Shown here: piece after piece, positions 117 through 14,434 of the stretch
How positions within the stretch are numbered: position 1 is the stretch's first letter
Layout: each line of letters starts with the position of its first letter
Source of the DNA: a bacterium
Lineage (GTDB): Bacteria > ARS69
Length of the DNA: 14,434 nt
Assembly: GCA_025774865.1 (NCBI GenBank)
Contig: JALGZO010000473.1
Coordinates: 1 to 14,434, forward strand
Direction: 5' to 3'
Notes under the pieces: model-generated
Told to the model about the DNA's origin: nothing
What the model saw: only the letters and a program-made list of their open reading frames with translations
Databases searched by the model: none
Position numbers and translations under genes: made by a program

Positions 117-1223
117 TCACTCGACGATGTCGAGCAACTCCACGTCGAACACCAGGGTCGCGTTCGCCGGAATCCGGCCGCCGGCGCCCCGCGCGCCGTA
201 ACCGAGCTCCGACGGGATGATCAGAATGCGCTTCTCACCGACCTTCATGTCGAGGAACGCGATGTCCCATCCCTTGATCACCTGTCCGACCCCGATCGCC
301 GTCTGGAACGGCTTTCCACGGTCGACGCTCGAATCGAACTTCGAGCCGTCCAGAAGATAGCCCGTGTAGTGGGCGGAAATGGTTTGCCCGACCGACGGCT
401 TCTCTCCTTCACCCCCCTGGCGGACGATGTACTCGAGACCCTCGGATGTCTTGACGGCTTCAGCCAGGTCGAACCCCAGCTTTTCGGCGATCTCCACTTT
501 TTGAGCTCCTTCCCTCTCGGCCTTCTCGCGCTTCATGCGGTCGATGAGATCCGATTCCTTGGCGTACTCTGTCTTCCAGTCGAAGGCGTTCGCCGCCTCC
601 CCGGTCGCTACGATTCGGACTTCTTCGAGAATGATGTCGACCAGCGGGATGGAAGCCGGGGCGCCGGGCCGCGACGCTCCCTTCATCTCGACCTTCGCCA
701 TCGCGTCCACGACGTCTTGACCATAGACACATTGGCCGAACACGGAGTGCTTGTCGTCCAGCCAGGGCGTCGCCTTGTGCGTGATGTAGAACTGGCTGCC
801 GTTCGTCGCGGGGCCGGAGTTCGCCATCGACAGGACGCCGGGCTTGTCGTGCCTGAGATCCGGATGAAACTCGTCGCTGAACGAGTATCCCGGGCCACCG
901 CGCCCGTTTCCGAGAGGGCAGCCGCCCTGGATCATGAAGTCCGGAATGCAACGGTGAAACTTGAGTCCGTTGTAGAAGGGCGTCTTGGTCATGTCTCCCG
1001 TCTTCGGATCCCGCCACTCCTTCTCGCCGGTCGCCAGGCCGACGAAGTTCGCCACGGTGACGGGGGCCTTGTCGTAGTGCAGCCGGCACACGATCGAGCC
1101 CATCGAGGTCTGAAAGACCGCGTAGAGGCCGTCTTCCTTCGTCGCTTCCGCCACGGCAGGCTCCTCGGCGCGGGCTGATCCCACGAAAACGGAGAGAATG
1201 GCGAGTCCTATCAACTGCAACAT
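117..1223 (-). CDS. Exported dual-family peptidyl-prolyl isomerase: cyclophilin domain fused to FKBP domain
   Basis: This 368-residue protein should catalyse cis-trans isomerisation of peptidyl-prolyl bonds outside the cytoplasm. Residues 1-19 form a signal peptide (hydrophobic LIGLAILSVFVG, then ARA/E). Residues 33-205 are a cyclophilin domain with FHR (catalytic Arg91), F96-MIQGG, a MANSGPATNGSQFYIT block at 133-148, Trp154 (equivalent to human CypA W121) and H159. Residues about 215-260 are a charged, probably helical linker. Residues 262-367 are an FKBP domain with HYTG (Tyr286), F296-D297, V315-I316-K-G-W319, Y342 and F359. The active-site residues of both families are present, so both domains look active. 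The start ATG follows GAGGAAGACAG, an acceptable ribosome binding site. It lies 97 bp downstream of selD on the same strand. Single-domain enzymes of both families are common, but fusions are rare and known as dual-family immunophilins (CFBP/FCBP). Family assignment is very secure. Confidence 0.95.
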   Translation of the reverse strand: MLQLIGLAILSVFVGSARAEEPAVAEATKEDGLYAVFQTSMGSIVCRLHYDKAPVTVANFVGLATGEKEWRDPKTGDMTKTPFYNGLKFHRCIPDFMIQGGCPLGNGRGGPGYSFSDEFHPDLRHDKPGVLSMANSGPATNGSQFYITHKATPWLDDKHSVFGQCVYGQDVVDAMAKVEMKGASRPGAPASIPLVDIILEEVRIVATGEAANAFDWKTEYAKESDLIDRMKREKAEREGAQKVEIAEKLGFDLAEAVKTSEGLEYIVRQGGEGEKPSVGQTISAHYTGYLLDGSKFDSSVDRGKPFQTAIGVGQVIKGWDIAFLDMKVGEKRILIIPSELGYGARGAGGRIPANATLVFDVELLDIVE

Positions 1224-1320: not shown

Positions 1321-2364
1321 CTATGGTTCGATTCGGATTCCCGGCGAATCGGTGATTCCCCCGATGACTGCGGCCGCCGGGCTTCCCGCTTCTCGAAGCC
1401 GCGCGACGATGCCGTCTGCGCGTTCAGGCGGGATCGCGACCAGGAGACCCCCCGACGTCTGCGCGTCGGCGAGGATCAACCGGTCCGCTTCCGAAACACC
1501 ACTGGCCACCGTGAGGATCCCGGCGACGCCGGCGAGGTTCTTCCGTGTCCCGCCCGGCGCGACGTCCTCCTCGGCGAGCTCCCGCGCCCCCCCGAGCACC
1601 GGCACGTCCGAGACGGTGAGCTGGGCTCCGAGCGAGTGATCTCGAAGCATCTCCGAGAGGTGGCCGAGGAGGCCGAATCCGGTGACGTCGGTCATCGACC
1701 GGGCGCCGAACTCGACCGCGATCCGGCTCGCGTCGCGATTCAGCGTGGTCATCACGGCGATGGCCTCGGCCAGGTCGTCCGCGGCGATTCGCTCTTGCTT
1801 GAGCGCCGTCGTGAGGATTCCCGTTCCGAGCGGCTTCGTGAGCACGAGACGGTCGCCCGGCTCGGCGCCGCCCTTCTTGAGCACCGCGTCGGGGTGGATG
1901 CTTCCGATCACGGCGAGACCGAACTTCGGCTCCGCGTCGTCGATCGTATGTCCCCCGATTATCGCGACGCCCGCCTCCGACGTCTTCGCCGACGCACCCT
2001 CCAGGATCTCGCCCAGGACGGATAGCGGCAACTGCTCGGACTTGGCCGGAAACGCGACGATGTTCATCGCCGCGAACGGCTCTCCTCCCATGGCGTACAC
2101 GTCGGAGAGCGAGTTCGTGGCCGCGATCTCGCCGTAGCTGCGCGGGTCGTCGACGATCGGCGTGAAGAAATCCACCGTCATGATGACGGCCAGATCGTCT
2201 CGGAGACGGTATACGCCGGCGTCGTCCGGGACGGAGGTTCCGACGAGGACGTCTGGGTCGGTGAAGGGCTTGAGCCGGCGCAGAACCTGCACCTCGAGAT
2301 CCTTCGCGCAGATCTTCGAGGCTCAACCAGCCGTGTGCGAGAACGAGGTCAACTTGACCGTCAC
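1321..2364 (-). CDS. selD: Selenide, water dikinase SelD, itself a selenoprotein (in-frame UGA at codon 14)
   Basis: SelD makes selenophosphate from selenide and ATP, the selenium donor for selenocysteine tRNA and 2-selenouridine. The gene is 348 codons including the TAG stop. It starts at GTG 2364-2362 after AAAGGAG with a 7-nt spacer. Codon 14 (2325-2323) is TGA. The residues around it, LTSFSHTAG-U-ASK, align with the E. coli SelD N-terminus LTQYSHGAGCGCK, so the UGA sits exactly on catalytic Cys17 and is followed by the conserved lysine (Lys17 here, Lys20 in E. coli). Downstream are the expected motifs: VPDDAGVY (D47, D48), DFF (D65), NSLSDVYAMGG (84-94), GGHT (137-140) and MTDVTGFGLLGHL. 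A call that begins at the internal GTG at 2292 would lose the active site. The gene overlaps the upstream hypothetical gene by 4 bases. Sec-containing SelD is known in several bacterial groups. Family certain; Sec decoding very likely. Confidence 0.93.
2277..2325 (-). promoter_or_regulatory. selD: Candidate bacterial SECIS hairpins downstream of the selD UGA
   Basis: Immediately after the UGA (2325-2323) the mRNA can form a strong hairpin. Its arms are 2321-2317 with 2296-2292 (5 bp) and 2315-2311 with 2301-2297 (5 bp), separated by one bulged A at 2316. The loop is 9 nt (UGCGCGAAG) with G as second base. A second, partly overlapping hairpin pairs 2293-2287 with 2283-2277 (7 bp, one G-U) around the loop GUU, and its core GCAGGUUCUGC closely resembles the fdhF SECIS core of E. 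coli (GCAGGUCUGC). From memory of published bacterial SECIS models, an apical G lies roughly 16-37 nt after UGA: the first loop starts slightly early (about 13 nt) and the second at about 36 nt. The two share bases 2292-2293, so only one full form exists at a time. Which one SelB binds is not decided by the sequence. Confidence 0.6.
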
Positions 2365-3305
2365 GACGCCGCTCCTTTCTCGGGGATGTTCTCGGGGATG
2401 AAGGTCAACGCGTCGGCACGCCGTGCTGCTGACCCGGGGGCCGGGGCGTCCGGGAGGTCGCGCATCAAGGTCGACGGATCGGGGAGCGCGGGAATGGTGA
2501 CGGCTCCCTCGGCGCCCCCGCGGACGCGGAGCGCTGCGCGCGGAAGGATGGCGTCGCCTCTCACCGGGCTCTCGAAGACGAGCTCCGCGGTTCCCGCGGG
2601 AGCCTTGCAGAATCCGGTTCGTTCGCGGAAGCCGGGCCGGAGCACGAATTCCCACGGGCGCAGCCCCGCCGAGGTCCGGATCCCGAGAATCTCCACCGGC
2701 TCCTTCCCGCGGTTGAACAGCTCCAGGCCGTCCTCGTTCCAGTGTGCCTCGAGGTCCGCTCCCGACGTGCGTCCGGGACAGAGTGGCAGCGACGCTTCGG
2801 CGGGCATCGCGACGTCCGCGAGGGCGAGAAACTCCGCGTCGTAGGCGAGGAGCAGCCCCGACGCGTGGAGCGTTCGATTCTCTTCGCGAATCTCCACGAT
2901 GACCTGGCGACCGAGATAGCGTCGCAAGAGCGGCTCGGCCGAGATCGGATCGCGGCCGAGAAGCTCGCGTGTCCATCGCGCGATCCGCTCTCCCCAGGGG
3001 GGGTGAGCCGCCCGCCAGATCTGGTCCTCGCGCCGGACGCGTACCTCGTCGGTCCACAAGGTCTCGGGCCGGAGGAGGCTGCCGACCTGCTTCACCTCGC
3101 CGCGCTCCAGGATCCGGCTCGACTCGACATGACCGTCCAGCGCGCGGGGCTCGTCGTACTCGATTTCGAGCCCGCCGGCCACGACGAGGGCCGTTCCGGA
3201 AATCCAGTCGCTGTCTTCCAGCCTGACCTGAACGCGATCGCCTTCGAACAATCGCAGCGGTGACGTCGACCACTCGCCGCGCGGGAATGCGGGACCCAGC
3301 CTCAT
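2361..3305 (-). CDS. Hypothetical protein translationally coupled to selD
   Basis: I do not recognise this 314-residue protein. It has no signal peptide or membrane segment and looks cytoplasmic. Two segments resemble small SH3/Sm-like beta-barrels: residues 17-75 (LFEGDRVQVRL ... SGTALVVAGGLEIEYDEP) and 128-170 (LGRQVIVEIREE ... SGLLLAYDAEFLALADV). Between them is a Trp-rich helical stretch (IWRAAHPPWGERIARWTREL, 96-115). Residues 183-270 look like a beta-sandwich, followed by a Pro/Ala-rich tail. The start ATG at 3305 has GGGAGGG just upstream; in-frame codons further upstream lie in non-coding-like sequence and overlap the promoter. Its TGA overlaps the selD GTG start (GTGA), so the two proteins are probably made together. 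That coupling is the only hint at function, and it could mean a role in selenium use or be accidental. Only two cysteines (176, 233) are present. Confidence 0.8.
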   Translation of the reverse strand: MRLGPAFPRGEWSTSPLRLFEGDRVQVRLEDSDWISGTALVVAGGLEIEYDEPRALDGHVESSRILERGEVKQVGSLLRPETLWTDEVRVRREDQIWRAAHPPWGERIARWTRELLGRDPISAEPLLRRYLGRQVIVEIREENRTLHASGLLLAYDAEFLALADVAMPAEASLPLCPGRTSGADLEAHWNEDGLELFNRGKEPVEILGIRTSAGLRPWEFVLRPGFRERTGFCKAPAGTAELVFESPVRGDAILPRAALRVRGGAEGAVTIPALPDPSTLMRDLPDAPAPGSAARRADALTFIPENIPEKGAAS

Positions 3306-12444: not shown

Positions 12445-14434
12445 ATGCACGCCCTGCCTCACGCCGTCCTCTTCGGTTTGATTCTGATTCCCTTCATCTT
12501 CACAGGCGCCGCGATCGGCGCGTTTCCCGAGCCTGCGCCGCCCGGGGGGCGCAGCGATTCGCAGATGATCACTTCGGGCCGCTCCGGGATCGAATGGATC
12601 CGCGTCCATCCTCCCGACGAATCTCCGTGCCCGCCTTCCTCCGTGGCGGGATCCCCCGGCCAGACGGTCGAGCACGTGTGGTGTTTCGAGGGGGCCGGCG
12701 GCGACAGCTCGTGGCCGGTGCGCCCCGGCGAGCACTGGGATCACTGGTCGAAGTTCGGATCGCCGGAAGGCAACCCGACGCGATGGCATGTGACGACGCG
12801 TCACGGCGGAACGACCACGGGCACCTACAACGCGTGGGTCGGTTGCGACAGTGTCGGCACGAACCCCGGCTGCCCGGACGTCGACTGGTGGATCTTCAAG
12901 GAAGGCTACGGCGACGAGTGGAACTACCCGCTCGTCTTGGAGTGCTCCGGCCAGGACGCCACGAGCGGCGGCACGATCGAGTTCGACCTGCGGTACGACG
13001 TCGAGCTTCTCTACGATTACGTCTATCTGGAGTACCGGCGGAATGCGAATGGCATGTGGGAAGCGGTTGTGGACTCCGTGGGCGCGCCCGCTGTCTTCAA
13101 CGGGGTCTCCGGGGCGGGGGACTACGGGAGCTCGGTGTGGCTGGAGAGCCGACGGCTCGTTCTGCCGACTCAGAGCGGAAACACGATGCTGCGCTGGCGG
13201 GCCGAGTCCGACGGCGCGTGGTCCGACGCCGACGGTCGCGGCGACACCGACGGGATGGTCGCGATCGACAACATGACCGTCACGTTCGCGGCGGACGGCG
13301 CGGTGGTGTCGGACGATTTCGAGTCCGGCGGCTTCGGTGGCATCGCGGCGACGTCCGGAACGGCCGCTTGGGCGCCCGGCGGCCTCATCGGCCCGGACTA
13401 CGACGGCTGGCACTTCGAGTACGACCCGGTGTACTCGGGTGAGCAGTTGACGTGCGTCTTCACGGACGACTGGATGTGGTCCGCGAAGGAGGGACCGGTC
13501 CCGTCGTGGGCGAACGGCTTCGACTTCCTGCTCGTCTCCCCGGTGATCGACGTGTCGGGATGGTCGGCGGGGGTGGTCGAGTTCGATGCGTACTTCTCCA
13601 ACAACTGGGGAGAGCGCGAGGATTGGTCCCGGGGGGTCGTTCGCGTCCACGACACGAGCCTCGGCTGGTCCCCGTGGGACGGCTTCGACGAAATCATCAT
13701 TCCGCAGGAGGGGTGGTGGAACCACAACGACCAACACATTCTGACCCCGTTCCTCGGGCCGAACGTGGACTCACTCCAGGTCGCCTGGGAGCTGTTCGAC
13801 ACCAGTGAGCCCGGTTCCAATTCCTGGGGCAAGCACGGCGGCGTGAAGTACTACATCGACAACGTGTCGTTCGGCAGCTTCGACGCGACCGAGACCGTGT
13901 TCACCTCGCGAGTGATCGACGTTCTCACCGACACGTTCTCGCGGGTGGACCCCGCACACACGCCGTTCCTGGACAACGCCGAGCAAGGCGACTGGATCGG
14001 TCTCGGCGGATCCCGCGCCTTCGAGAACGCCGACTCGCTCACCGTCCACATCGAAGACCTGGACGGGATGGCCTCCGCGACGGTCGGGCTCTTCTTTCGC
14101 CACGACGACGGCACCGGACCGGCGGTCGCGAACCAGGTCTGGACGGCGTGGGAGTCGAAGGCGATGGACTTGTCCGTCCCCGACCAGTTCAACACCGGCT
14201 GGGGCGACTACCGGATGATCTTCGGCGAAGACTCCGGAATCGCGATCGGCTCGGGCGGCGAGGACGGAACGGGGGCAGCGGACGGCTTTATCTGGAACGC
14301 CGGCACGACCGTCCAGTACTACGTCAAGGTCGTGGACGACGCGGCGAACGAAGCGACGTTCCCGGCGACCGCAGCGGACCCGGCTCCGATCTACTTCGAG
14401 TGGTCCGTCCTTCCCTTCCGGGTCAACACCTTCG
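12445..14434 (+). CDS. Large exported protein with tandem MAM/jelly-roll-like modules, cut by the window end
   Basis: From ATG 12445 the frame stays open to the window end (663 codons, no stop). GGGGAGGTG six bases upstream is a near-ideal ribosome site. Residues 1-26 are a signal peptide (HAVLFGLILIPFIFTGAAIGA). Residues about 75-282 form one beta-rich module with HVWCFEGAGG, WWIFKEGYGDEWNYPLVL and YDYVYLEYR, ending in AIDNMTVTF. A second module (about 288-490) starts with DDFESGGF, has LLVSPVIDVSGW, and ends in YIDNVSFG. Both have the look of MAM/concanavalin-like jelly rolls often attached to immune-inhibitor-A-type (M6) proteases and adhesins, but no HExxH motif is seen so far. Residues 500-663 are an Ig-like region ending in YFEWSVLPFRV. 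Acidic, Trp- and Gly-rich composition fits a surface or secreted protein. A sorting domain, if present, would lie beyond the window. Confidence 0.85.
   Translation, partial: MHALPHAVLFGLILIPFIFTGAAIGAFPEPAPPGGRSDSQMITSGRSGIEWIRVHPPDESPCPPSSVAGSPGQTVEHVWCFEGAGGDSSWPVRPGEHWDHWSKFGSPEGNPTRWHVTTRHGGTTTGTYNAWVGCDSVGTNPGCPDVDWWIFKEGYGDEWNYPLVLECSGQDATSGGTIEFDLRYDVELLYDYVYLEYRRNANGMWEAVVDSVGAPAVFNGVSGAGDYGSSVWLESRRLVLPTQSGNTMLRWRAESDGAWSDADGRGDTDGMVAIDNMTVTFAADGAVVSDDFESGGFGGIAATSGTAAWAPGGLIGPDYDGWHFEYDPVYSGEQLTCVFTDDWMWSAKEGPVPSWANGFDFLLVSPVIDVSGWSAGVVEFDAYFSNNWGEREDWSRGVVRVHDTSLGWSPWDGFDEIIIPQEGWWNHNDQHILTPFLGPNVDSLQVAWELFDTSEPGSNSWGKHGGVKYYIDNVSFGSFDATETVFTSRVIDVLTDTFSRVDPAHTPFLDNAEQGDWIGLGGSRAFENADSLTVHIEDLDGMASATVGLFFRHDDGTGPAVANQVWTAWESKAMDLSVPDQFNTGWGDYRMIFGEDSGIAIGSGGEDGTGAADGFIWNAGTTVQYYVKVVDDAANEATFPATAADPAPIYFEWSVLPFRVNTF

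Follow-up and report, generated by a model that had tools for sequence, protein, structure and literature searches.

A selD reading frame interrupted by TGA

The window, a stretch of 14,434 nucleotides of bacterial DNA, carries on its reverse strand a frame resembling that of selenophosphate synthetase (SelD), which is interrupted near its 5' end by an in-frame TGA. The question raised by this locus is whether the codon ends the gene, is an error, or is read as an amino acid. That SelD can itself be a selenoprotein is long established, and bacterial examples are both common and well documented.

Translation of positions 1321 to 2364 revealed a single internal stop, TGA 2325-2323, flanked by LTSFSHTAG and ASKI. 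When this codon is read as selenocysteine (Sec), the frame encodes a complete SelD of 347 residues. The read-through protein matched the full-length NCBIfam selD model (TIGR00476) over residues 4 to 315 with a score of 375.8 bits, well above the curated cut-off of 125, and it also matched both AIRS Pfam domains. The coordinates and the SelD read-through given in the original prediction were exact, the TIGR00476 match spanning the UGA. That prediction had also proposed a GTG start with a ribosome site and an overlap with the preceding stop. Both are present: AAAGGAG lies upstream, and GTG 2364-2362 overlaps the stop codon of the upstream gene (TGA 2363-2361) in the sequence GTGA. As anticipated there, the mechanical list of open reading frames starts instead at the internal GTG 2292 and yields a 323-amino-acid protein from which the active site is lost. 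The features of the locus are listed in Table 1.

Table 1. Positions of the selD gene, its signals and related genes (window coordinates unless another contig is named)
Feature	Position	Strand	Remarks
selD (selenophosphate synthetase)	1321..2364	-	347 aa with predicted Sec at residue 14; GTG 2364-2362, TAG 1323-1321
In-frame TGA, predicted to be read as selenocysteine	2323..2325	-	Position of E. coli Cys17
Conserved catalytic Lys codon	2314..2316	-	Residue 17, equivalent to E. coli Lys20; invariant in 17 aligned SelDs
Shine-Dalgarno-like AAAGGAG	2372..2378	-	A few nt upstream of the GTG start; read from sequence
First hairpin directly after UGA	2291..2322	-	GCCUCGA-A-GAUCU, loop GCGCGAA, GGAUC-UCGAGGU; largely kept in family
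Best candidate bacterial SECIS hairpin	2277..2293	-	GGUGCAG-GUU-CUGCGCC; 7 bp, loop GUU from 36 nt after UGA, -9.4 kcal/mol
Upstream gene	2361..3305	-	About 314 aa; no Pfam or NCBIfam match; stop overlaps selD start
Downstream gene, cyclophilin and FKBP-type peptidyl-prolyl isomerase	117..1223	-	Adjoins selD in family
SelW-like gene, MKVTIEFCKV-U-NYDPI...	L123:1500-1760 (G000:C314:7915-8130)		Window's own genome; CxxU with in-frame TGA

The protein is homologous to E. coli SelD (3u0o), a Cys form, over residues 2 to 338 (E = 1.3e-73). In the alignment of the two, the UGA at query residue 14 falls on chain residue 17 and a Lys follows at +3, in agreement with the earlier placement of the UGA on Cys17 with Lys three residues on. 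Lys20 and the other invariant residues of the E. coli enzyme are kept, whereas its Cys17 gives way to the UGA codon. Where E. coli has the motif GCGCK, the window protein reads GUASK, with Ser in place of the second Cys (Cys19). The UGA occupies the Cys position of the homologues, and coding sequence is conserved on both of its sides.

The gene of approximately 314 amino acids directly upstream of selD holds that position in each of the four family genomes with a selD, and the cyclophilin-FKBP isomerase gene also adjoins selD in the family. At the remaining SelD loci that were fetched, the upstream protein was not detected. At the far end of the window, a large open frame (12445-14433, forward strand) runs off the window. 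It has no Pfam match and is probably a secreted protein.

Conservation of the TGA codon

One explanation for the interrupted frame is that translation genuinely ends at the TGA, or that the TGA arose from a Cys codon by an error of sequencing or assembly. The locus would then encode either a Cys-SelD of the ordinary kind or a shortened protein from GTG 2292. Standard ORF calling does produce the latter, and TGA is a single base away from TGC or TGT. However, TGA occupies the same SelD codon in three further genomes of the family, whose SelDs are 64 to 67% identical, and in many unrelated phyla. Its recurrence in independent assemblies makes an assembly error for TGC, which the original prediction had named as the finding that would overturn it, very unlikely. 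The codons upstream of the TGA keep the LT..SH.AG of the SelD N-terminus, and a start at 2292 would drop both the catalytic residue and the Lys. Together with the Sec machinery present in the genome (see below), these observations leave the stop or error explanation with very little probability.

In a wider set of 73 distinct aligned SelD sequences, drawn from relatives and from named genomes across many phyla, TGA stood at this codon in 68 and Cys in five. This is not an unbiased frequency, since the set was partly picked by similarity to the query. Sequencing error cannot account for such a recurrence of TGA. Three of the loci with a Cys codon in place of the UGA (L024, L027, and L031) encode SelD within a long open frame of 744 to 748 amino acids. 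Their SelD domain is 44 to 52% identical to the window protein, but the frame is much longer than the stand-alone gene of the window, and they are probably the known oxidoreductase-SelD fusion. Some genomes combine a Cys-SelD in a 744- to 745-amino-acid frame with one or more separate SelDs that contain the in-frame TGA (L027 with G049:C53 and G049:C27; L031 with G034:C89).

A phylum-wide search returned five genomes, the same as the family set, which suggests that the lineage is a small phylum of its own in the genome taxonomy used. This number is too small for analysis of covariation within the family. The closest named records, Gemmatimonadota bacterium DHS20C21 and Gemmatimonadetes bacterium HKST-UBA01, are both metagenome-assembled. 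No SelD match was found in one of the five genomes (G002, 96% complete), although SelA and tRNA-Sec are present there, as is a SelW-like gene that contains TGA. This is probably a gap in the draft.

Selenocysteine machinery and a second candidate selenoprotein

The original prediction held that SelA, SelB, and tRNA-Sec should be encoded elsewhere in the genome, and all three were located. SelA (contig C592, 543 bits) and SelB (contig C584, 340 bits, in a 696-amino-acid frame) both scored over their cut-offs, and a tRNA-Sec with a UCA anticodon was found on contig C40 with 72.7 bits (cut-off, 47). The other high matches to RF01852 that were checked, on C702, C591, and C644, proved to be tRNA-Ser and tRNA-Leu. 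Within the window itself, ARAGORN detected no tRNAs. The assembly is a draft of 785 contigs, 92.65% complete with 8.3% contamination, and the three genes lie on contigs other than that of selD. Contamination is nevertheless unlikely to be their source, since tRNA-Sec was present in all five family genomes (72 to 75 bits), and in the cleanest of these (100% complete, 1% contamination) SelA, Sec-SelD, and tRNA-Sec occur side by side.

A SelW-like gene (Rdx, PF10262) with an in-frame TGA in its CxxU motif was present in the genome of the window and in three family genomes. It likely encodes a second selenoprotein, in which case SelD would not be the only one in the window's genome. For formate dehydrogenase-type molybdenum enzymes, a rough motif search of the retrieved pieces gave no clear Sec site. 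The selenouridine synthase SelU (2-selenouridine synthase, TIGR03167) had no match in any of the five family genomes, and selenophosphate therefore presumably goes to Sec.

Hairpins downstream of the UGA

Two hairpins can be drawn in the coding sequence after the UGA. The first, initially a candidate for the SECIS, has its loop only 13 nt from the UGA, outside the 16 to 37 nt of the published bacterial SECIS model. For this reason, we prefer the second hairpin, at a spacing of 36 nt, although the choice is tentative. Hairpins were scored with a simplified version of the published model that allows only an uninterrupted stem. The second hairpin fits this model but is not by itself significant against synonymous codons: 47% of synonymous draws for the window gene also fit, which makes its own hairpin weak evidence, and 10.6% of positions in the window have such a hairpin. 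The 60-nt folding energy of the window gene was lower than for most synonymous versions, 12 of 500 being as low. In one locus (L020), no hairpin meeting the strict SECIS model was found.

Among the Sec-SelDs as a group, the signal is much stronger. A hairpin fitting the model was found in 50 of 68 genes, whereas 9.3 would be expected if synonymous codons were sampled according to the usage of each gene; the z value of 15.7 is inflated because related sequences are counted as independent. None of the five Cys-SelDs had one. This enrichment, along with the predicted SelA, SelB, and tRNA-Sec and the second gene with a TGA-containing CxxU motif, speaks against non-Sec readthrough of the UGA (suppression with insertion of, for example, Trp or Cys), which is described for SPS-UGA genes of insects such as SPS1-UGA (PMC4561486) and which we consider the least probable explanation of all.

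Hairpin spacings among the Sec-SelDs cluster mainly near 17, 20, or 33 to 36 nt after the UGA. Differing spacings within the first 50 nt were observed in L033, L040, L073, L023, and others. It is conceivable, if somewhat doubtful, that the SECIS hairpin moved along selD in different lineages, that the lineage of the window stacks two of them, and that SelB would tolerate such relocation.

Proposed function and implications

We consider it almost certain that the window gene makes a SelD with Sec at its active site, encoded by the UGA and aided by SelB, tRNA-Sec, and an RNA hairpin. At the sequence level, this is supported by the recoded frame, the conservation of that frame, the genes for SelA, SelB, and tRNA-Sec, and the second likely selenoprotein. 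Decoding of the UGA as Sec, the choice of hairpin by SelB, and the activity of the enzyme are parts of this best explanation and can be pictured as follows. At codon 14, SelB would bring Sec-tRNA-Sec to the UGA, with a hairpin in the approximately 50 nt of coding sequence after it assisting decoding. The Sec would occupy the catalytic position held by Cys17 in the E. coli enzyme and help to convert selenide and ATP to selenophosphate, which SelA would use to make Sec-tRNA-Sec. As SelA makes Sec-tRNA-Sec from selenophosphate, the enzyme would depend on its own product. This circularity, whereby Sec is required for its own synthesis, is well recognized for Sec-SelD enzymes.

The window gene is a new but ordinary member of a well-known selenoprotein family. 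Bacterial SelD containing Sec (SPS/SelD-Sec) is a known system (PMC4561486, PMC13188914), with which the gene shares the fold family, the UGA at the catalytic position, SelA, SelB, and tRNA-Sec in the genome, and a hairpin after the UGA. It differs only in details of its lineage: one extra codon between UGA and hairpin, and the Ser that replaces the second Cys. These findings show that selenocysteine is very probably made by this poorly sampled lineage, whose selD a standard gene caller would truncate. The variation of hairpin position among SelD lineages is the only mildly fresh point and may offer a modest lead on how SelB finds its signal.
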